Of a DNA stretch of 64,000 nt, positions 7,404-62,110 are shown one piece after another. The notes under the pieces are model-generated. The model saw only the letters and a program-made list of their open reading frames with translations. It did not search any database and was not told where the DNA came from. The first letter of the stretch is position 1; each line of letters begins with the position of its first letter. This DNA is from Pseudoips prasinana (taxonomy: Eukaryota; Arthropoda; Insecta; Lepidoptera; Nolidae). A program made the translations under genes and the position numbers. The DNA is taken from contig OX621255.1 of assembly GCA_951640165.1 (NCBI GenBank), positions 29,362,001 to 29,426,000 on the forward strand, in the 5' to 3' direction.

Positions 7404-7649
7404 AATATGTAGGGACAATGTCACACAGATCATCCTAGCCCCAAACTAAGCAAAGCTTGTACTATGGGTACCAGGCGACGATATACATACTTATATAGAT
7501 AGATAAATACTTAAATACATAGAAAACATCCATGACTCAGAAACAAATATTCGTGCTCATCACACAAATATTTGCACTTACCGGGATTCGAACCCAGGAC
7601 CACCAGCTTCGCAGGCAGGAGCACTACCAACTAGGCTACGGTGACCGTC
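7404..7649 (-). mobile_element. SINE-A copy, full length
   Basis: Minus-strand copy with intact head (GGTAGTGCTCCTGCC, GGTTCGAATCCCGG) and body. Bases at the left edge form an AAT microsatellite tail. Confidence 0.85.
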
Positions 7650-21599: not shown

Positions 21600-21858
21600 A
21601 CGGGCCTGTTGGCGTGGTTGGTAGATACGCTGCTTCTCACGCCGGAGGTCGTGGGTTCAATTCCCACCCAGGACAAATATTTGTGTGCATGAACATGTCT
21701 ATTTGTCCTGAGTCTGCTTGTAAATTATCTATATAAGTATGTGTTTACAAAAGAAAAATAGTATATGTAGTATATCAGTTATCTGGTTTCCATAGTACAA
21801 GCTGTGCTTAGTTTGGGATCAGATGACCGTGTGTGAATTATGTCGCAGGATATTATAA
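21600..21858 (+). mobile_element. SINE-B copy, full length
   Basis: Head CGGGCCTGTTGGCGTGG, B box GGGTTCAATTCCC, full body to GTCGCAGGATATT. Confidence 0.85.
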
Positions 21859-23269: not shown

Positions 23270-23750
23270 ATATCGCCACCCCATCTCATCCCGTGAGCGG
23301 CGTAGAAGTCATCCGAATATCTATAATATCTATAATAATATCTGGGGACAATGTCACACAGATCATCCTAGCCCCAAACTAAGCAAAGCTTGTACTGTGG
23401 GTACCAGGCGACGATATACATACTTATATAGATAGATAAATACATATATACATAGAAAACATCCATGACTCAGAAACAAATATTCGTGCTCATCACACAA
23501 ATATTTGCACTTACCGGGATTCGAACCCAGGACCACCAGCTTCGTAGGCAGGAGCACTACCAACTAGGCTATGGTGACCGTCGATTCAGAGATCGGGCAG
23601 CAGTGTGTCTCACTGCGATCGACCCGTCTGCCAAGTCCGTCTGGCATATGCCTATAAATGATAGACACAACACCATTGTGGAAATCTTTTGGGGAGGCTT
23701 TTGTCCAGCAGTGGACGTCATTCTGCTGACATGATGGTGATGGTGCTTTT
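23270..23750 (+). repeat. R5 repeat split by SINE-A
   Basis: Left part CACCCCATCTCATCCCGTGA; right part from CGGGCAGCAG through GTCCAGCAGTGGACGTCATT. A minus-strand SINE-A sits between. Confidence 0.65.
23331..23581 (-). mobile_element. SINE-A copy, full length
   Basis: Intact minus-strand head and body, inserted in the R5 repeat. The frames at 23363-23563 and 23465-23734 run over it and are not genes. Confidence 0.85.
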
Positions 23751-37432: not shown

Positions 37433-38064
37433 CTGGTCGAACAGTGCCTCTTAACTGTAAACGTCGTCATGTTAAAAAAATATTTATTGTAAATTGTTCA
37501 AGATGTGTAGTTTGAACGTAGGAATTATGTGATGCACACGTATTACATTAAATATATAATTATCCGGTGCTAACAAAGATAGATAATAGTTAAAAAGCCC
37601 GTGTAATTATGTTAATAAAATAAATTTTATTACTCAGGTCATCCATGTTGTCTTGAGCTGAATAAACTCCTTTAAATACCGGCCACCGAGCGTAACGAGC
37701 AAAGATCACGACCCTTCGTCGACATTACAAGGAGAAAGCCGCTGTTTATTCGATTGACCCCACAGTATGAACAATGTTGTATATTAATATAGTACCTACC
37801 CAGTTTTTGCAATAAGCTGGCGATATGCAGGCATATATGCACACTACCTGTTATTATTAAAGGGGTCTGTAATTTTGAAACAAACCAAGCCTTAAATATT
37901 GAGATTGTTGCAAAGTTATTGCAGCGTACATTTTCAGTGAAACTAGAGGTTGCTATAATCATTTCGTACACAATTGGCTTCAGTAATTATTCTACAAATT
38001 TAATCTTATTTAAATTAACATCGCCAAATTTAGCGTGGTTTTATTAAACTTATATAAAACTCAC
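37433..38064. other. Intron start of the PTB gene; no repeat recognised
   Basis: Starts (on the minus strand) with GTGAGTTTTATAT at 38064. AT-rich, with a non-homologous 99-codon minus frame at 37672-37971. Confidence 0.5.
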
Positions 38065-39261
38065 CTCGGGCGGAGCTGCGAACTTCAAGTTGGCGAGAGA
38101 TCCGTGTGACCTGCTCCGGTGCTCCTGTCGGATGCTGTAGGAGAAAGCACGCTCGTTCATATGGCCCTTCTTCCTGTATATACCGCCCGCGTCGTCTGTC
38201 GCCTCCAGCCCCGACCCCATGCTCTGCGCCGCCTTTAGTGCGCCTGGCGGGGGCTTAGAGCGGCGAGGGTCCACCGTTGCGTATTGCAACCTCGCGCGAC
38301 CTCCAGGTGGGCCGGGGGGTCCTGGGGGCCCCGGAGGATAAGGTCCGGCGGCTAGAGCTGCAGGCACGCGGCCTCGGTGCCCTAAAGTTGCAGGACGGGC
38401 GTGAGGTAATGTAGCGGCTGGGTGGGCAACCAGCACCATGGGGTGCGCCCAAGCGGGCGGTGCCCTTCCGAGGGACCGACCGTTCATAGCGGCGGTGCTG
38501 CCTGCATATAACTCGTCAGCTGACGCGGAAGACTTTTTCTTTGTTTTCTTGGCGGTGGCAGTCTTCTTCTTGGGCTCTTCGGGAGGCGGTGGTGGTGGTG
38601 GCACTGAGGCGGGCCGCGTGATCTGTCGAGGGCGTGGCGCACGCGCAGGGTGCGGGATGTCATCGCTGGCGTCGTCCCGCTCGTCACCGACCCACACTTT
38701 GTGATTCTCGTCACCATCGTACACCTCCAGCTCCTCATCGGCGTCCGGGGGCGCCTGCAGCGGCGAGCGCTCGGCCTCCAGCCGCTTGGCGTACGAGCTG
38801 TCGGCGTAGGCGTGGAAGCAGCAGCGCACCAGCGCGTTGGCAGCGGCCTCGCGGCGGCAGATGAAGGCGTGGCACTCCAGCACCTTGATGCCGTGCGTGC
38901 GGCGCAGCACGGCGGCGAACAGCGGCGGGCGGCGCGGCGTGGGCGCGCGCGCGAAGGGCGAGTCGAGCGGCAGGAAGCGCGCCGCGCCCTCCACGGCCAC
39001 GCGCCGGACGGCGGCGCAGTAGTGCAGGCTGGCGATGGGGAAGAAGCGCGCCACCCGCGAGCCGCTCTCGTCTATGTTCTCGAGCAGGATACCGTTCGAC
39101 CACACCGATAGCCACGAGTCGATGCCACCGCTCGTCGCGCCCTTCTCCGGGTACAGCTCGCGCAGGGGCTCCTGGATGCCCTGCAGCCCATCCTTGCTCT
39201 GCTGCGGCACCGCCGAGCCCAGGTACAGCACGCGGCACCGACAGATCGGCGTCGACTCCAT
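38065..39261 (-). CDS. PTB/PID domain protein, first coding exon
   Basis: This exon encodes residues 1-399 and ends in phase 0 at GAG|GTGAGT (intron from 38064); the frame otherwise reads only four more codons. The ATG at 39261 is preceded by GACGCA and follows a GC-rich upstream zone, so it is taken as the start. Residues about 8-162 look like a PTB/PID domain: RCRVLYLGSAVP at the first strand, WLSVWSNGILLEN, FFPIASLHYCAAV, and the final helix HAFICRREAAANALVRCCFH. Then come an acidic stretch (173-202), seven prolines (221-227), a lysine-rich segment (230-243), PPGPPGPPGPP (310-320) and a basic serine-rich end (GHMNERAFSYSIRQEHRSRS). Such proteins are usually cytoplasmic adaptors binding NPxY-like or phosphotyrosine peptides. 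It recalls the uncharacterised Drosophila CG12581-type PTB family, from memory and unverified. Third positions are strongly GC-rich, unlike the flanks. The remaining exons were not found to the left. Confidence 0.85.
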
Positions 39262-52866: not shown

Positions 52867-52941
52867 CTAGTATTTCGAAGACTTGTAGGACGGCTCGTCG
52901 CTCGGTTGCGGCGCCTTGCGCTTCTGAATTATGTTTTGGAT
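52867..52941 (-). CDS. Red: Red/IK, last coding exon (24 residues and stop)
   Basis: Encodes IQNIIQKRKAPQPSDEPSYK, then SSKY and TAG. Acceptor TTGTTTCAG|ATC, phase 0, following EWQQ of the previous exon. The family likewise ends in a basic segment and a short K-Y tail. The stop is at 52867-52869. The 3' UTR probably enters MITE-3. Confidence 0.9.
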   Translation of the reverse strand: MQNIIQKRKAPQPSDEPSYKSSKY

Positions 52942-53106
52942 CTGAAACAATTGGATTAGGTTAGAACATGGATAGATATGTATTTCTTTCTTTAGCTCTT
53001 TGACCACAACACTCATGATAAACTAGCCTATTGGTCTAGTGCTCAGTGACCCAGACTGCTAAGCGAGAGGTCGCGGTTTCTTTCTCCACACGTGACAAAT
53101 GTTTGT

Positions 53107-53538
53107 GGGTCGTTCTTCTTTTAAACCTATAATTTGAAGAGCATTTTTGGAATTTCTCGGATTTTTTAACATCTATTATATAATAACCTTAAAAAAATAA
53201 AATTTAACTTTTTATAAGTTGCCAGAAGACTACTTAATGCTTCATTGTAGGTTAGCAACGTATTGCGTTTTGTTGTGGTTTACTAGTAAACATTGTGACA
53301 GAGTGGTCGTTTTCTTCGGAGACAGTATTTCACTTTACCACTCTGTCACAATCGTTTGTGACCAAAGATTCGGTATTTTTACATTCACTAACAGGGAATT
53401 TGACAAGTATACTGTGTTGATTATTTAAAGCCAATTCTGGACATCGACTTCCTCTAGGCAATATAAACAATAGCATTCTAAAGGGACGCTTGTTTCAATG
53501 AAGGACAAATCATTGTAGGTAAAAAAGAAGAACGACCC
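53107..53538. mobile_element. MITE-9, 432 bp, TTGT duplication
   Basis: GGGTCGTTCTTCTTTTAAAC and AAAAAAGAAGAACGACCC ends. TTGT at 53103-53106 and 53539-53542; joining the flanks restores a normal SINE sequence. Internal 13-bp inverted pair TGTGACAGAGTGG / CCACTCTGTCACA. Confidence 0.75.
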
Positions 53539-53591
53539 TTGTGTGTTGAGCAAGATTATTTGATCTGCGCCTAAGGGTAATTTATGTATAA

Positions 53592-53904
53592 CTAGCTGTG
53601 CCCCGCAGTTTTACCCGCATTAAACTTTATAAATTATCACAGCTCTTCCCCCGTAGGTGATAGCGTGACAATATGTAGCCTATATGTTGACCCGACCTCT
53701 TAGTAATATACATGCAAAATTTGAAGTAAATCCATGCAGTACTTTTTGAGTTTAGCCCGGACATACATACAGACAAATAGACAAAAATTCTAAAAACTAT
53801 ATTTTCGTCTTCGATATCTATAGTAGATCACGCCTCAAGTATCCTTTAAAAAACAAATTCGATGGACAGTTTTGACTTTCCTACGATTTTATTACATGTA
53901 TAGA
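53592..53904 (-). mobile_element. Helitron-1 copy
   Basis: Minus strand TCTATACATGTAATAAAATC to GGGCACAGCTAG. 313 bp, in a Red intron. Confidence 0.85.
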
Positions 53905-54054
53905 TATGTATATGTATAGATCACAGCTCCTCCCCCGTAGGTGATAGCGTGATAATATGTAGCCTATATATGTTGACCTGACCTCTTAGTAATATAATAA
54001 AGTTTAAAAATTATAAACGGAAAAAACGCGGGTAAAACCGTGGGGCACAGCTAT
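53905..54054. mobile_element. Rearranged Helitron fragment
   Basis: Minus-oriented middle (CACAGCTCCTCCCCCGTAGG ... CTTAGTAATAT) joined to a plus-oriented 3' end (ACGCGGGTAAAACCGTGGGG, CACAGCTA). Confidence 0.6.
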
Positions 54055-54132
54055 TAATTCTATAAGAATAATAATTACAAGGCCATTAAAATCTCTCAAC
54101 TAAATAACCAATACTTTCATAATTATACAAAC

Positions 54133-54299
54133 CTGCTGCCACTCTCTGTCTAGCTCCGCCTTCTCGCTCTTATCCTTGGTCTTCCTTGTCTTGCGTCCGT
54201 CTTGCGTCTTGACTCCGTACTGGAAGGCGGCTTTAGGCAGTGCTTCCTTACTGCTCATGTAGGCTGAATATTCTTCTTGTGTGTCAAAGTCCCAGCGAC
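54133..54299 (-). CDS. Red: Red/IK, penultimate exon
   Basis: Completes a split glycine codon, then RWDFDTQEEYSAYMSSKEAL, the PKAAFQYGVK block and an R/K/E-rich stretch ending EWQQ. This is the most conserved C-terminal block of RED proteins. Acceptor TTTATTCTAG|GTCGC, donor CAG|GTTTGT. The open frame extends into flanking intron on both sides, which is not coding. Confidence 0.95.
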
Positions 54300-54480
54300 C
54301 TAGAATAAAGAGAAATTCGGCATTAAAGTCATCAATATGGATAACAAGTCTAGTAGACACGTGGATTCGACATATTGCTTCAGAGATTTCAGAGTTGTGC
54401 CCCACACCATAGATAGATAGAATTCTCTTTATTGTACACACTCAAACAGAATGAAATTACATCGGATATAAAGAAAATAA

Positions 54481-54714
54481 TGACGCCAGCACATCCAGCT
54501 AACCCAATCTGTCAAATTTATTTTTTAGATTTTCAACTTTATCTCTTCTGGTTTAAAATCTTTATTCCTCAAAATAATACCATTCACTTATATGAGAAAC
54601 ATATTTAACAAAGTAAACAAAAATTTCTTAAATATTAATCTCTTAAGCATAAGGTTCACTTTCAATTGGGGAAATTTGACAGATTGGGGTAGCTTGATGT
54701 GCTGGCGTCTGTAC
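54481..54714. mobile_element. MITE-1 copy with about 100-bp insertion
   Basis: TGACGCCAGCACATCCAGCT and GATGTGCTGGCGTCTGTAC ends. The core is interrupted at about 54543-54645 by AT-rich sequence absent from the other copies. Confidence 0.75.
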
Positions 54715-55384
54715 AACGGGCGATCTCTTCCAGACAACCTTTGGGTGGATGAGAATTGTAAGTAAAGTACACAGCAGCAGGAGTGCAACAAATAAATTAT
54801 ACTAAGGAACTGTGATTTAAATATATTGCAGACAAAATAATTAGTATGACTTTAAAAATAAAAGTATGTTAATAAACATATCATATACTGATTATATTCA
54901 GGTGTCAAGTAATTATGAACATAGGTAGTGATCCTTAACAAGCTCGTTGAACGTAGGGAGAGTCTGGGCACGAGATCAAAGGTCGGCAGAGCATTCCACA
55001 ATCAAACAGCTTGCACAACAAATGACTTATCCATGAATATGGTAGAATGTGTAGGTATATGCAGCTTCAAGTCATTTGCTGACCTTAGGAATCGCGAAAA
55101 AATTTAGTATTTCTATCTAGATTGTCGGCTCTTAGACGCAAGTGCCCACTATCCGCGCACAGCTATCGACTGACTATCGCGACCGCGCGTGCGCAAGAGA
55201 TGACATAATGCTTCCTTCTCTTTCACTCACAGACACTAGTGTGTTACTTGTAAAACACCAACAACCTCGCACGACTATATAGCTAATATTATAAGCAACA
55301 ACTTTTGTTTTACGAATTCGGACAAAACTCAATACATGAAAAAAATATTAAAAGTTTTTTTTTTGTACCGTCGTAACATTTCTA

Positions 55385-55724
55385 GGTCTATGTTTCATTC
55401 ATACGACGCTCGGCTCACGTGCTGCTAATAATACAAACACTATCTTCTCCAGATATTTATCTAGTTCATTTCACGGCTTGGCGTAGGTAAATATGGAAAC
55501 CTAATTGCATATTGGCGGCAGTAATTTCTGCGAGGCGCGTAGAGTTATAAACATTCAAAGGGGAAACTAAATTAATACTTATTTTTGTACGAAAATAAAA
55601 TTTAATCCAATTATCAAATACAATTTTTCACAAGCCGTCAAGTTAACTAGATAAATAACTGGAAGAAAGTGTTTTTATTATTAGAAGCGCGCGAGCGGAG
55701 CGTCGTATGAATGAAACATAGACC
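55385..55724. mobile_element. MITE-8, 340 bp, TA duplication
   Basis: GGTCTATGTTTCATTCATAC and GTATGAATGAAACATAGACC ends, flanked by TA at 55383-55384 and 55725-55726 (mariner-like). It abuts the SINE-D tail. Confidence 0.75.
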
Positions 55725-55726
55725 TA

Positions 55727-56104
55727 ATAATAATGTCCTCCTAGCCGAATTCGGCCACGGCGGCCAGTCTCAACAAAGATTGGCCATCAGCGCGGGACAT
55801 ATTATAGTGCTCAAGTGTGTGCGCAAACACAGGAGCACTTTCTATTCCATCACTATCATGATCCGGTGGGACGCCTTAGCGACACGACCGGAAAGAGGTC
55901 AGGCTCAGGACCGACGGCTTTTCGTGCTCTCCGAGGCACGGGGGTATAATACCGCCAACTCCCAGACAAAGTCTGGGAGTAGGCTGAGAAATTTGTCTTT
56001 TTACGTAAAAGTCCCAAAATCACTTTTGGCCCGACCCAGGATTTGAACCCAGGACCTCATTAACTGCGGGTGAAAACGCTACCGCTAGACCAACGAGGCA
56101 GTCA
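55727..56104 (-). mobile_element. SINE-D copy, full length
   Basis: Minus strand head GCCTCGTTGGTCTAGCGG, B box GGGTTCAAATCCTGG, body with the self-complementary CTCCCAGACTTTGTCTGGGAG hairpin-forming region, tail CTAGGAGGACATTATTATT. The frame at 55711-56046 is antisense. Confidence 0.8.
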
Positions 56105-56289
56105 AACAACATAGACCTACAAACGTTACGACAATACAACAGAATTTTTTTTTGTTAATTATAATATATTGAGTTATGTCCGAACCCATAGAACAAAAGT
56201 TGTTGCTTATAGTGTTACCTTTATATTCCTGCGAGCTTGTTGGTGTTTTACAAATAACCCTGTCTATGAATATTTATAATAAACGTTAC

Positions 56290-56484
56290 CAATGGGCCCC
56301 TTCTTATTCCCAGCATCCATCTTGGTATAGTCCACTTCATCATCAGAGTCATCGATAGCGTCATCCATTTCCCTCAGGCCGGGGTAGCACTCGGCGTAGC
56401 CCTCGGGCTCCGCAGCCAGTCGGGACAGCAGCGCTGCAGAACGACGGGACCGGTCTTCCACCCCACGACCGGGACCGCGAATTT
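56290..56484 (-). CDS. Red: Red/IK, exon with YAECYPG block
   Basis: Acceptor TTTTTCAG|AAATTC. The first two bases complete a glutamate codon begun in the previous exon, which fixes that exon's donor. Encodes an arginine-rich start, then GYAECYPGLREMDDAIDDSD, a DDEVDYTKMD acidic block and NKKGPI, the hallmark segment preceding RWDFDTQEEY in the family. Donor ATTG|GTAACG, phase 1. Confidence 0.95.
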
Positions 56485-57290
56485 CTGAAAAAGAAAGACA
56501 TACAGCTTAGATACGATTGAAATCAAGATCAATAGTCATTTATTCCGTTAAAATATTACATTTGTGTGGAATCGACATTTTTTTTTACCCTACCGTGCAG
56601 TGCATGACGTACCAGCTACTGAGAAACACTGCCAGAAAATTCAGTAGGAATCCTTTTTTAAAATATTTATTTCTTACATAAAATGACATTGTATTGAAAT
56701 GTGTTAATTTAGAGCGACTCAATCCCAAGCTGTTTTGTCACTTAAATAATCAGAAGTTTTGTAGTAAGCCCTGCTACACAATTTGGCTTTTATAATTCTT
56801 TTAAACTTATTCATAGACATTTCTCGGATATCACTGGGAAGTTTGTTATAGAATCTTATTGAGAAAAGATCTTCAAAGAAGGAGGTTTACAGTTTACAGG
56901 TGTTCACCGTGAGTTATTCAACCTAACCATAAAGTTCCATTACACCATCTTTTAAATGTAAAAAAAATTCGGAAACATAAACGTGTAATTTCTTTAAGAA
57001 CGAAAACTGCAATAATTTGCTGACATTTTTTTAAATAATCCTTTTTTACGTGACGAGAACGTTAGGAAGTGCGATCAGGCGATGCGAACAGAAGTTGAGA
57101 GGGAGATATAAGATAGTGAAAGAGATATAGAAAGATAGTTACAGATTTTTTCTTTCTCTCATAGCCAGTTACATCTCGTATATCTAAGTTCTACTTCAGT
57201 TCTAAAGGACTATAATTTAGCACATATAGTGGCGGTATTTCCAATAATCTTTCCTCAGTTGAAGCCTATAACATTAAATATAGTTATTAT
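56485..57290 (-). other. Red intron, 3' half
   Basis: 56719-56880 (minus) is a LINE ORF2 C-terminal scrap: FYNKLPSDIREMSMNKFKRI and a YYKTSDYLSD block ending in a stop. 57050-57170 is rich in AGA/GATA tracts. The rest is unrecognised. Confidence 0.55.
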
Positions 57291-59134
57291 CGGCTTGTCG
57301 AAGTACCCGCTCGTGTCAGTACATACAAGTGTGTCGTGCGCTACCTTCCTGCGTGTCGTGCGCCGGCTTGTCGAAGTACCCGCTCGTGTCAGTACATACA
57401 AGTGTGTCGTGCGCTACCTTCCTGCGTGTCGTGCGCCGGCTTGTCGAAGTACCCGCTCGTGTCAGTACATACAAGTGTGTCGTGCGCTACCTTCCTGCGT
57501 GTCGTGCGCCGGCTTGTCGAAGTACCCGCTCGTGTCAGTACATACAAGTGTGTCGTGCGCTACCTTCCTGCGTGTCGTGCGCCGGCTTGTCGAAGTACCC
57601 GCTCGTGTCAGTACATACAAGTGTGTCGTGCGCTACCTTCCTGCGTGTCGTGCGCCGGCTTGTCGAAGTACCCGCTCGTGTCAGTACATACAAGTGTGTC
57701 GTGCGCTACCTTCCTGCGTGTCGTGCGCCGGCTTGTCGAAGTACCCGCTCGTGTCAGTACATACAAGTGTGTCGTGCGCTACCTTCCTGCGTGTCGTGCG
57801 CCGGCTTGTCGAAGTACCCGCTCGTGTCAGTACATACAAGTGTGTCGTGCGCTACCTTCCTGCGTGTCGTGCGCCGGCTTGTCGAAGTACCCGCTCGTGT
57901 CAGTACATACAAGTGTGTCGTGCGCTACCTTCCTGCGTGTCGTGCGCCGGCTTGTCGAAGTACCCGCTCGTGTCAGTACATACAAGTGTGTCGTGCGCTA
58001 CCTTCCTGCGTGTCGTGCGCCGGCTTGTCGAAGTACCCGCTCGTGTCAGTACATACAAGTGTGTCGTGCGCTACCTTCCTGCGTGTCGTGCGCCGGCTTG
58101 TCGAAGTACCCGCTCGTGTCAGTACATACAAGTGTGTCGTGCGCTACCTTCCTGCGTGTCGTGCGCCGGCTTGTCGAAGTACCCGCTCGTGTCAGTACAT
58201 ACAAGTGTGTCGTGCGCTACCTTCCTGCGTGTCGTGCGCCGGCTTGTCGAAGTACCCGCTCGTGTCAGTACATACAAGTGTGTCGTGCGCTACCTTCCTG
58301 CGTGTCGTGCGCCGGCTTGTCGAAGTACCCGCTCGTGTCAGTACATACAAGTGTGTCGTGCGCTACCTTCCTGCGTGTCGTGCGCCGGCTTGTCGAAGTA
58401 CCCGCTCGTGTCAGTACATACAAGTGTGTCGTGCGCTACCTTCCTGCGTGTCGTGCGCCGGCTTGTCGAAGTACCCGCTCGTGTCAGTACATACAAGTGT
58501 GTCGTGCGCTACCTTCCTGCGTGTCGTGCGCCGGCTTGTCGAAGTACCCGCTCGTGTCAGTACATACAAGTGTGTCGTGCGCTACCTTCCTGCGTGTCGT
58601 GCGCCGGCTTGTCGAAGTACCCGCTCGTGTCAGTACATACAAGTGTGTCGTGCGCTACCTTCCTGCGTGTCGTGCGCCGGCTTGTCGAAGTACCCGCTCG
58701 TGTCAGTACATACAAGTGTGTCGTGCGCTACCTTCCTGCGTGTCGTGCGCCGGCTTGTCGAAGTACCCGCTCGTGTCAGTACATACAAGTGTGTCGTGCG
58801 CTACCTTCCTGCGTGTCGTGCGCCGGCTTGTCGAAGTACCCGCTCGTGTCAGTACATACAAGTGTGTCGTGCGCTACCTTCCTGCGTGTCGTGCGCCGGC
58901 TTGTCGAAGTACCCGCTCGTGTCAGTACATACAAGTGTGTCGTGCGCTACCTTCCTGCGTGTCGTGCGCCGGCTTGTCGAAGTACCCGCTCGTGTCAGTA
59001 CATACAAGTGTGTCGTGCGCTACCTTCCTGCGTGTCGTGCGCCGGCTTGTCGAAGTACCCGCTCGTGTCAGTACATACAAGTGTGTCGTGCGCTACCTTC
59101 CTGCGTGTCGTGCGCCGGCTTGTCGAAGTACCCG
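57291..59134 (-). repeat. 73-bp minisatellite, about 25 copies, spanning a Red splice donor
   Basis: GGCTTGTCGAAGTACCC recurs 26 times at exact 73-bp spacing from 57292 to 59117, with no differences seen between units. On the minus strand each unit is 37 nt of Red exon 3' end plus 36 nt of intron start, so each contains GGAAG|GTAGCG. Each unit also has an internal near-duplication GCGCACGACAC. The 5'-most copy (59097) is the functional exon end; 24 further donors follow in the intron. The plus strand has no stop in the unit, so long open frames run in all three phases. Confidence 0.97.
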
Positions 59135-59241
59135 CCAGCCCGCGGTCGCTCGTCGCGCCGCTCGTGCCGCTCGCCTGCTGTGTACTCGCCGATCTCGCCG
59201 TAGATCGACTCGTCCTGACGACCCTTTTCTGTTGGTTTGTC
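59097..59241 (-). CDS. Red: Red/IK, exon whose donor seeds the minisatellite
   Basis: Acceptor ATATTTCAG|GAC, phase 0 after KLKKTK of the previous exon. Encodes DKPTEKGRQDESIYGEIGEY, an arginine/glutamate-rich segment (GERHERRDERPR), then GGYFDKPAHDTQE and the first base of a split codon. RED proteins of other animals carry RE/RD repeats about here; this version keeps only a short remnant. The donor GAAG|GTAGCG is weak at +5 and +6. Reading past it gives a TGA after 30 nt. The adjacent out-of-frame 87-codon frame is not real. Confidence 0.92.
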
Positions 59242-59515
59242 CTGAAATATAAACGCAATTAGACAAAATCATAATGGTAACAATTCTCTTTAACAGGAAT
59301 CTGAAAAAGAAAACACGCTGAACATCGCACCGGTCGGCTAAGTCTACTGAAAAAAGGCATAACCAAATTAGAGCTCTCGATGGGGTTGAACCAATACTGA
59401 TGTAACAAATTAAGCATTTGTTAGTTTAGTATTCGATACGTATGCACGTAAATCGGCATGTAATACACACATACTTAGTACTAACGAATGCATAGTTATC
59501 AAAATATAATTAACA

Positions 59516-60005
59516 TATCCTTAAATAGCCAATACACACATACTTATCAAATACTAACAAACTGATGTCTTCGTATCGAATATTTAACACTATTTAACAA
59601 TCTTTTACACACACTAATGTAAATGTATTATTATAGGACAATTTGCATACCATGCCCTGATTGGTTTGTTACCGATTCACATACACAAATACTACTTATG
59701 TGTGCGTTGGTGCCTGGTATGGATATCTTTTATGCTTTGTATACTTATAGAATTGTAACAAACGAGTGCTATCGCATCGTATATTTATTTAAGAAACCCT
59801 TAAATAGAGTATACACAATATTTATCGAATACTAACAAACTAATGCCATCGTATCGAATATTTAACTAACAAATCCTTCAATAGCGAATATACACGTACT
59901 TATCGAATACTAACAAACGAATGTCATCGTATCGAATATTTAACCAACTAATCCTTAAGTAGCTACTTATCGAACGCACTTATCGTATACTTAACTATCA
60001 AATCC
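59516..60005. repeat. Decayed 77-bp tandem repeat
   Basis: Units at 59516, 59796, 59873 and 59950 share CCTTAAATAG, ACTTATCGAATACTAACAAA and ATCGTATCGAATATTTAAC. The last three are contiguous at 77-bp spacing; the first is about 200 bp away. Unrelated to the 73-bp array. Confidence 0.75.
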
Positions 60006-60390
60006 TGAGAACGCGTTTGCTCATGTAATGAATGAACATTTAATAGGGAATTCTGGTAAGTAATCGCCTCAGATTAGACTAAAGATAGATTAGTATAAAT
60101 TTAGTTTTTTTTAATTTAGTAGAATTTTTGTAGCGCTTCCAGGATGTTCACCGAGGCCAGGGTTGATGGTTTTCATGCAATTATACGGAAACGGTGCGCT
60201 TCTGTTCTCGGTAGAATAAGTGCTAGCTCCCACAGCATCCTGAGTGTATTGTGTGATAGATGGGACAGCCCCATGCTGGCTCACTGGATACGGCTGCACA
60301 CGTAGATGTCAGTCGTTTCAAGTTTATATTATATTATTATAAAAGACACTCTTAAACAAAAGTATAAGAGTGTCTTTTACTAACACTTTA

Positions 60391-60790
60391 GTCTTTTCGC
60401 CATAAGATGAGTTCCCTGACAGTTCATTTTTTTCGGTGGAACGCATACTACTTTAGACGAATAAAAAATTAACTGGCAAAAAATTTAAAAAATAAATGAT
60501 TAAGAAAATATTGCCTTTCGTAAATTACTAAGAAAATTATTGTAGTTATAATTAACTGTTAATAAATTAAGTAAATAAAATAAAAAAGTATAAATCTTAA
60601 AAATGTCTAATGCGTTGAACGGAACGTCGGCCAATAGAGATTGACGCTACTCATAGATTGACACTAATCCGATTCCATTTTCTTTGCCAACTGAATCGAT
60701 ATTATAAAAAATCGATTATATTTCGTTAGGTCACGTCACTATAATTGTCAGACAAGAACTGTCAGGGAACTCATCTTATGGCGAAAAGAC
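60391..60790. mobile_element. MITE-7, 400 bp, perfect 34-bp TIRs, TA duplication
   Basis: GTCTTTTCGCCATAAGATGA... on the left and ...TCATCTTATGGCGAAAAGAC on the right are perfect inverted copies over 34 bp, flanked by TA (60389-60390, 60791-60792). Mariner-like, non-coding, recent by TIR identity. Confidence 0.85.
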
Positions 60791-60906
60791 TATAGGTTAA
60801 GACTTACTAACAATAAATGGATTTGATCTGAAATAAACTAATTAATAATAATAAAATGGGAAAAGAGATCTCGTAGCTGAGAAAACTCATGTAACTGCCA
60901 ACTTAC

Positions 60907-61150
60907 CTTAGTTTTCTTGAGCTTCCTATGTCTCCCATGCCTTAGGTAAGAGAAGATCTGCGCCAACTTATCCAGCACCACATCATTAGCGCTAGAGGCG
61001 GAACTCCTCTCATCCATCTCGGGCACATCAGCTTTACTTCGGGTAAGAGTAGTGGGGATATCGCTATCTATGGTCCCTTCTTCGTCCAACTCCACTACAT
61101 AAGCCATGCGGCCAGGCGCGAACATCTCGTTACGAATCACTTTTTTAGCC
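60907..61150 (-). CDS. Red: Red/IK, exon with the FAPGRMAYVV core
   Basis: The first base completes a lysine codon. Then AKKVIRNEMFAPGRMAYVVE, DIPTTLTRSKADVPEMDE and LDKLAQIFSYLRHGRHRKLK. The R(N/E)E(M/L)F-PGRMAYVV and DIPTTL-RSKAD motifs identify RED/IK unambiguously. Acceptor ATTCACAG|GGC, donor AAG|GTAAGT, phase 0. Confidence 0.97.
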
Positions 61151-61224
61151 CTGTGAATATTTAAGACATTCTAATACCAGCCAGTTCAGAATAAAATAAT
61201 ATGTATGTCATCTCAAAGACTTGA

Positions 61225-61425
61225 CTGCACGTGTGGCGCAGCAGCCAAGACAGTCGCCTTGCCGCTTCGTGTCGCGGATTCGAGTCCCGCGCCGGACTAC
61301 TATTTGTGTGACCCACAAATGGTTGTTCTGAGTCTGGATGTAATCTGTGTCCGTCTATTGTGTTTGTAACGTACCCCGCGACACAGAGACTAGAATCCCT
61401 AGTGCAAGCGTTGTCTTTAAAAAAA
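61225..61425 (+). mobile_element. SINE-C copy in a Red intron
   Basis: GCACGTGTGGCGCAGCAG, GATTCGAGTCCCGCGCCGGA, body to GTGCAAGCGTTGTCTT and an A tail. Antisense to Red. Confidence 0.85.
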
Positions 61426-61749
61426 AACAAAGGTGGCGATGCAGTTAGGCGAGTAAAACACCAGCATTTCAATGTATTTTTTTAAGAGGTCATCTGAACG
61501 AGGTCAGAGGAAAGAGACATACCAGAAAACAACATCTACAATCATCACAATACTGGAACGGCCACGGTTCCCAAAATTCCCCGCTCCAGACGACCGCATA
61601 TCGGAACAATGTGTCAAATTCACGTTGCCGAACAGCGCGTCACCGCAGCGCAACTTATAACGCCATGCCGTACCATACTGCGTGCGTATCCAGCACCCGT
61701 TTGATGACCTTTGTGCCAACATTTATTGAGTTTAATCAAAATCGCTTAC
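61426..61749 (-). other. Red intron, GC-balanced and unrecognised
   Basis: Open frames occur on both strands (61472-61660 +, 61504-61722 -) but show no RED homology and lack fitting splice phases. Confidence 0.45.
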
Positions 61750-61814
61750 TTTTGTTCTTGGATCATGTTGTAAATGTTCTTTCCCATTGTTGTGTTAAAC
61801 AGCATCTCTTCTTC
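61750..61814 (-). CDS. Red: Red/IK, 65-nt exon
   Basis: Acceptor GTATTTTCAG|GAA. Encodes EEEMLFNTTMGKNIYNMIQE, then Q and two bases of a lysine codon. Donor AA|GTAAGC. It matches the (K/R)xGRN(V/I)Y region that precedes the NEMFAPGRMAYVV block in the family. Too short to stand out as an open frame; supported by both splice sites and phase. Confidence 0.9.
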
Positions 61815-62002
61815 CTGAAAATACATAGAAAAATGTTTTTCATTTACTAACATTTTATATAAAAACATTGATATCAAACAAAATATTTGGAGTCCAATAA
61901 ATAGTAGCAAAAATGCATTCAGCAGCCAAATATTGTCTACTGCAGTACATTGTTAAATCATTGCCCACTCTTTCAACATTAATCTATATTTCTTTAACTC
62001 AC

Positions 62003-62110
62003 CACGGGTGCCACTTCCTTCTTCTCCTTGACAGGTTCGACGGGCGCGGAGACCAGGCGCTCCATCTCGGCCTCTTGCTCCTGTTCCCTTGTCTGTATCT
62101 CTGACCGGAC
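62003..62110 (-). CDS. Red: Red/IK, most 5' exon in the window
   Basis: Encodes VRSEIQTREQEQEAEMERLV and a P/E/K-rich end (EKKEVAPV), 36 residues, phase 0 at both ends. It corresponds to the family's LLQKVRAEI-like coiled and acidic segment. Acceptor TGATCAG|GTC, donor GTG|GTGAGT. Upstream exons (the N-terminal RED half) lie beyond the right edge. Confidence 0.92.

Follow-up and report, generated by a model that had tools for sequence, protein, structure and literature searches.

A perfect 73-bp minisatellite repeats a 5' splice site of the Red gene 25 times in the moth Pseudoips prasinana

Introduction

How does a gene go on making its protein when one of its 5' splice sites stands 25 times in a row? 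The question arises at a locus of the nolid moth Pseudoips prasinana, in a 64,000-nt stretch of contig OX621255.1 (assembly GCA_951640165.1, positions 29,362,001 to 29,426,000, forward strand). We refer to this whole stretch as the window, and positions are given within it unless otherwise indicated. A preliminary description, made from the sequence alone, had reported a minisatellite across the end of an exon in the gene for the splicing protein Red, and had proposed that the array acts as a sink for U1 snRNP, that it tunes productive Red mRNA through nonsense-mediated decay (NMD), perhaps under the control of Red itself, or that it is kept harmless by use of the first donor. Here we describe the gene, the array and the consequences of splicing from each donor, and we weigh these readings along with several others.

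Results

We built the model of the Red gene (Red/IK) from the window together with 10 kb of adjoining sequence outside it. The gene lies on the minus strand of the window and has 11 coding exons of 64-244 nt, whose stop-free join encodes 493 amino acids. That it encodes Red, as first proposed, is borne out by the Pfam domains RED_N (E = 8.7e-94) and RED_C (E = 3.7e-53) in the predicted protein and by its match to human Protein Red (E = 3.7e-118). A homologue search matched 1815 proteins among 7991 candidates scored, of which 120 were listed; Red of Mythimna separata was the top match among those listed, with 91% identity. When the moth's own genome (1.126 Gb in 56 contigs) was searched with the protein, all 10 matches fell within positions 29414870-29435437 of contig C21 and represented one gene. 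No second copy of Red was found among the 12 best candidates scored in this genome, and on that basis we rejected a pseudogene or duplicate copy of the gene. The features of the locus are collected in Table 1.

Table 1. Features of the Red locus and its tandem array, in window coordinates.
Feature	Position	Strand	Basis
Red gene, part within the window (coding exons 5-11)	52867..62110	-	gene model; exons 1-4 outside the window
Red exon 8, 145 nt, ends in phase 1	59097..59241	-	gene model, frame, exon-by-exon match in own genome
Red intron 8 with donor 1, 2612 nt	56485..59096	-	gene model
Red exon 9; acceptor with 15/20 pyrimidines	56290..56484	-	gene model
73-bp minisatellite, 25 perfect units + 20 nt, across exon 8/intron 8 boundary	57291..59135	-	TRF, exact match, maximal periodic stretch
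Adjacent 22-bp boundary duplication inside the unit, probably older: 59115-59094 (exon end + GTA) and 59093-59072, 17/22 identical	59072..59115	-	shuffle test
Donor 1 (first 5' splice site, keeps the frame), GAAG|GTAGCG; exon 8 ends at 59097	59091..59100	-	only frame-keeper of 25 donors
24 further identical donors, AG|GTAGCG, 73-bp spacing	57339..59025	-	motif matches and frame test
In-frame TGA ending any transcript from donors 2-25, codon 358	59068..59070	-	frame test
CTGAC, branch-point-like by consensus, with its A at intron +29; recurs at 73-nt intervals	59067..59071	-	

TRF gave a period of 73, 25.3 copies and 100% matches over 57291-59135, and the maximal exact period-73 stretch covered the same 1845 nt. 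The exact unit occurred 25 times on the minus strand and in 0 of 100 dinucleotide-preserving shuffles, confirming the original count of 25 units at 73-bp spacing without differences. The boundary motif GGAAG|GTAGCG was present 25 times in the array, and the sequence AGGTAGCG 26 times in the window, with 25 of the 26 occurrences inside the array. The unit had been described as 37 nt of exon plus 36 nt of intron, in an array ending at 59134. That it spans exon and intron was correct; we measured a split of 39 exonic and 34 intronic nt, with the last 39 nt of exon 8 forming the first part of the array, and an end at 59135. All 13 genome matches of the unit lay within the array, in a search that scores the best candidates and skips very common words, and a 28-nt piece of the unit had 0 matches among viral contigs.

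At its far end the array terminates 20 nt into a 26th unit, and this partial unit abuts unrelated intron sequence. One simple duplication does not explain such an end, which hints at a template switch or at a deletion that came later. Directly after the array, at 57266-57290, the sequence TAATAAC...TTATAG resembles a weak acceptor, with 10/20 pyrimidines. A second minisatellite, diverged and with a 77-bp unit (2.9 copies, 82% by TRF), occupies 59741-59963 within Red intron 7, a short way before exon 8.

The unit also contains a duplication of its own. The last 19 exonic nt plus GTA make up a 22-bp segment that is followed directly by a diverged copy; the identity of the two copies was reached in none of 200 single-base and none of 200 dinucleotide shuffles of the unit, in which the maxima were 14 and 16 matches. 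The exon 8 boundary has thus probably been duplicated at least twice, with an old 22-bp step that would have preceded a recent 73-bp amplification. Since the 25 units show zero differences, the array has either grown recently or is continually homogenised.

Only one of the 25 donors keeps the reading frame. The frame was preserved when exon 8 ended at 59097 and continued into exon 9, and 59097 as last exon base agrees with the donor first assigned; every one of donors 2-25 led instead to the TGA at codon 358 (24/24), which lies at intron +27 to +29 relative to donor 1. The preliminary description had predicted a premature stop from all later donors, which is what we found, and its reason, that 73 is not a multiple of three and that a TGA lies 30 nt past the first donor, was not quite complete: every third donor (4, 7, 10 and onward) lengthens the exon by a multiple of three and fails as well, because the in-frame TGA precedes them all. 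By arithmetic, exon 8 would grow from 145 nt to between 218 and 1897 nt with the later donors, and intron 8 would shrink from 2612 nt to 860 nt with donor 25. An mRNA spliced from a wrong donor would have three exon junctions 3' of the stop, the nearest 44 nt away in the case of donor 2. A stop codon with exon junctions downstream should trigger NMD, and the shared stop of all 24 products supports the earlier view of NMD as a plausible fate of later-donor transcripts.

It had also been argued that the split codon between exons 8 and 9 proves donor 1 to be the right one. Donor 1 is indeed alone in keeping the frame; the split codon by itself is not proof, and some support is added by lepidopteran proteins. 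This comparison used gene models only, with the query aligned to a set of 41 of the 120 listed proteins. Model P0042 of Diatraea saccharalis reads past the exon as ...EKEEGNVSFFY, as would be expected for read-through of a G|GTAAY donor, and model P0040 of Papilio machaon, which lacks the next exon and has an odd stretch elsewhere, reads ...EKEEGRWDF. Each of the two readings fits a phase-1 break at the corresponding site, which would lie one codon farther from the invariant YF than it does in P. prasinana. In Plutella xylostella, model P0037 carries two copies of most of exon 8, separated by a short stretch, whereas the sequence P0038, 98-99% identical to it, has one copy. The second copy in P0037 may be an annotation effect or real, and would be another kind of tandem duplication of the same exon.

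Donor 1 is a weak site. It matches 5/9 consensus positions, tied with the donor of intron 9 for the lowest value among the gene's ten, and by U1 duplex energy (-6.2 kcal/mol) only two of the ten are weaker. We also counted matches to SRSASGA, a human SRSF1 consensus, and found four in each unit, a number that 0 of 3000 dinucleotide shuffles reached (28 of 3000 reached three) and that is not evidence of binding; two of the four come from the paired copies of the 22-bp duplication and are not independent. The 11 coding exons hold four such motifs in total, three of them in exon 8.

We rejected the idea that RNA structure hides the later donors. For the first, second and last copy, the mean unpaired probability over the donor was 0.56, 0.53 and 0.45 with 60-nt flanks and 0.50, 0.47 and 0.46 with 150-nt flanks. 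Donor 1 is slightly more open, by too little for a choice among sites, and a 220-nt piece of three units folded worse than its own shuffles (z +2.2).

We also determined how often comparable arrays occur in this genome. The sample comprised 20 random 10-kb stretches (200 kb), the first 20 of 120 sites picked at random from the initial 20 Mb of contigs C1-C28, and we counted TRF arrays with a period of 30-150 bp, at least 4 copies and at least 98% matches. Three arrays qualified, with periods of 113, 105 and 126 bp and 98-100% matches, which puts their density at about 3-44 per Mb (Poisson 95% range). Arrays of lower identity, for instance one of 38 bp with 6.9 copies at 87%, fell outside the count. 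The 113-bp array (stretch L027, 8552-10000) is perfect, has at least 12.8 copies and runs to the end of its stretch. With an assumed, not measured, number of about 100,000 donors per genome, a unit of the size studied here would hold a donor about 0.65-1% of the time, and tens to hundreds of donor-spanning arrays would be expected without selection. Because arrays over donors would be expected by chance, the location of the array on a donor is not in itself evidence of function.

On the plus strand opposite Red, all three frames are open through the array, with 0 stops per frame and ORFs of 677, 638 and 624 aa within 57229-59262. Two Pfam families passed the whole-protein cut-off on these ORFs (Integrin_B_tail, 49.3 bits; HisG_C, 28.1 bits) and no single stretch passed, the pattern expected from repeated weak matches. 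On this basis we rejected, by judgement, an antisense coding gene, and note that an antisense strand open in three frames could mislead gene predictors.

Elsewhere in the window, a GC-rich ORF of 403 aa at 38050-39261 on the minus strand, in a 2-kb bin with 59% GC, had no Pfam match and is possibly an exon of another gene. ARAGORN called only a tRNA-Glu at 21603-21675. Two Rfam tRNA matches on the minus strand, at 7581-7638 and 23513-23572, were not called by ARAGORN and are possibly tRNA-derived SINEs.

Discussion

The explanation that we consider likely is that the array is a young minisatellite and a bystander in the Red gene, with the first donor used for the most part, some transcripts leaking to NMD, and a net effect between neutral and slightly costly. 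The region of the exon 8 donor would have been duplicated locally more than once, by a 22-bp step and then by amplification of the 73-bp unit to 25 copies, so that a weak 5' splice site was copied along with its upstream exonic sequence. Most splicing would most likely be from donor 1, since transcription reaches it before the others and it completes the normal 145-nt exon. Use of a later donor would end translation at codon 358 and probably lead to NMD, which is why we expect the array to be close to neutral. The identity of the units (25/25) supports a young bystander, as do the similar arrays in the genome sample, which show that such arrays are not rare, and an exon 8 whose length with donor 1 falls within the gene's exon range. 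Given that no second copy of Red was found among the best candidates scored, correct mRNA must presumably be made, if Red is essential. Among the roles suggested at the outset, an array kept harmless by presumed use of mostly the first donor is the likeliest. Two observations count against a passive array of this kind: the weakness of donor 1, and the SRSASGA motifs in each unit, which could favour late donors, SRSF1 being reported to promote use of the intron-proximal site (PMC5585400).

A functional role is unlikely. In such a role, a regulated share of later-donor use would set the level of Red protein through NMD, possibly by way of Red itself, and the same premature stop from 24/24 later donors is in its favor. 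So is the report that Red regulates alternative splicing and is needed in longer introns too (PMC6692369), and the lower activity reported with higher repeat number at the human CBS locus (PMC5188458). The perfect identity of the units, in contrast, points to youth or homogenisation rather than to long selection. The requirement for Smu1 and RED is reported to lie mainly in introns with a short distance from 5' splice site to branch site, with a peak at 50-70 nt (PMC6692369). With intron length taken as a stand-in for that distance, intron 8, at 860-2612 nt from donor 25 to donor 1, lies outside the short-intron range, as do the 29 nt within one unit. A short-intron role of Red could not tell these donors apart, and self-regulation by Red, as suggested before, is possible and has no specific support.

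Nor is it probable that the copy number is an artefact of assembly, with a true allele of few units or of some different number. Assemblers do err at perfect repeats; against this, an assembly of 1.126 Gb in 56 contigs, with no N in the 284 kb checked, suggests long reads able to span 1.85 kb, and other near-perfect arrays were present in our sample of the same assembly.

Quite improbable, too, is a harmful allele, in which the later donors would be used often enough to make this Red copy a hypomorph tolerated in one haplotype. What is reported on competing donors leaves room for it: SRSF1 favors the intron-proximal site and hnRNP A1 the intron-distal one, and the effect of SRSF1 can go either way by position (PMC5585400). 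The weakness of the first donor speaks for it as well. The gene does not look decayed, however, since its 11-exon reading frame is intact, and the 12 best candidates scored included no second Red copy.

We regard as very unlikely a further possibility, in which recursive splicing or re-splicing would take units out of the array step by step as GT...AG pieces, either ahead of the main splice or following it, and correct mRNA would result from any donor. In each of the 24 later-donor products, the extra sequence starts with GT and ends with AG, and taking it out recreates the junction of exons 8 and 9 exactly. Copying an AG|GT boundary has this result as a matter of form, and intron gain by tandem duplication builds on the same idea (PMC4974935). 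Upstream of the AG in question, at a distance of 44 nt, is the branch-like A of CTGAC. Introns are reported to have arisen from AGGT segments duplicated in tandem, and one in fission yeast extends over four 24-bp copies (PMC4974935). The rating is low because of the poor acceptor and the short branch distance: the array's AG is preceded by 8/20 pyrimidines, compared with 10-15 at the gene's ten acceptors, and the one-unit distance of 29 nt from 5' splice site to branch site is below the roughly 50 nt said to be needed (PMC6692369), with the two-unit distance of 102 nt allowed. Were stepwise removal to occur, a splicing-factor gene would tolerate, or even use, 25 competing donors through an array that erases itself.

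The proposal of a U1 snRNP sink acting in trans can practically be dismissed: there are 25 donors in a row, but each is weak in its U1 match (5/9, -6.2 kcal/mol), nothing specific supports titration, and a single gene could not plausibly deplete so abundant a snRNP.

The young-bystander reading places the array beside a known human case. In CBS, the VNTR c.1444_1467+7(16_21) has a 31-bp unit of 24 exonic and 7 intronic nt in 16-21 copies (PMC2630376; the VNTR also appears in a table of PMC1395315). As there, a minisatellite in Red covers exon end, donor and intron start, so that the 5' splice site is multiplied. The CBS units are 31 bp, carry substitutions and are a known polymorphism, whereas those of Red are 73 bp and all identical, and we claim no common origin. 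The Red array is a new, clean example of this kind rather than a new kind. A duplicated splice junction is also shared with CBS 844ins68, an intron/exon junction duplication of which one copy is reported to be strongly preferred (PMC2630376).

The array further resembles cases of intron gain by tandem AGGT duplication (Rogers 1989, Hellsten 2011, the fission-yeast 24-bp repeats and potato RdRp, as described in PMC4974935), in that tandem AG|GT copies bound each insert by GT and AG (24/24). It differs from them in that the segment copied here already held a donor, where an intron already began, and any new intron would be hypothetical. In having a GT donor immediately behind an AG acceptor, the array resembles the recursive-splicing ratchet points of Drosophila (PMC8605326). 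Unlike ratchet points, which have a pyrimidine tract before the AG|GT, the Red array is poor in pyrimidines before the AG, and its units are 73 nt apart. The available text of PMC12783039 describes repeats inside earthworm metallothionein genes and no donor-spanning array, and none of the papers listed in our literature searches was seen to report a donor-spanning array in an insect. New here are the internal 22-bp boundary duplication and the exact GT...AG insert in every wrong-donor product.

The value of the Red array is as a natural experiment on the choice among identical splice sites. Its 25 identical donors stand at equal spacing and nearly all in the same context, as in a duplicated-5'-splice-site experiment carried out by nature, and since little but position varies among them, junction counts alone would reveal, in a living insect, the rule by which position matters. 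The array also illustrates how a splice junction can give rise to a minisatellite, and it raises the question of what makes such arrays tolerable.
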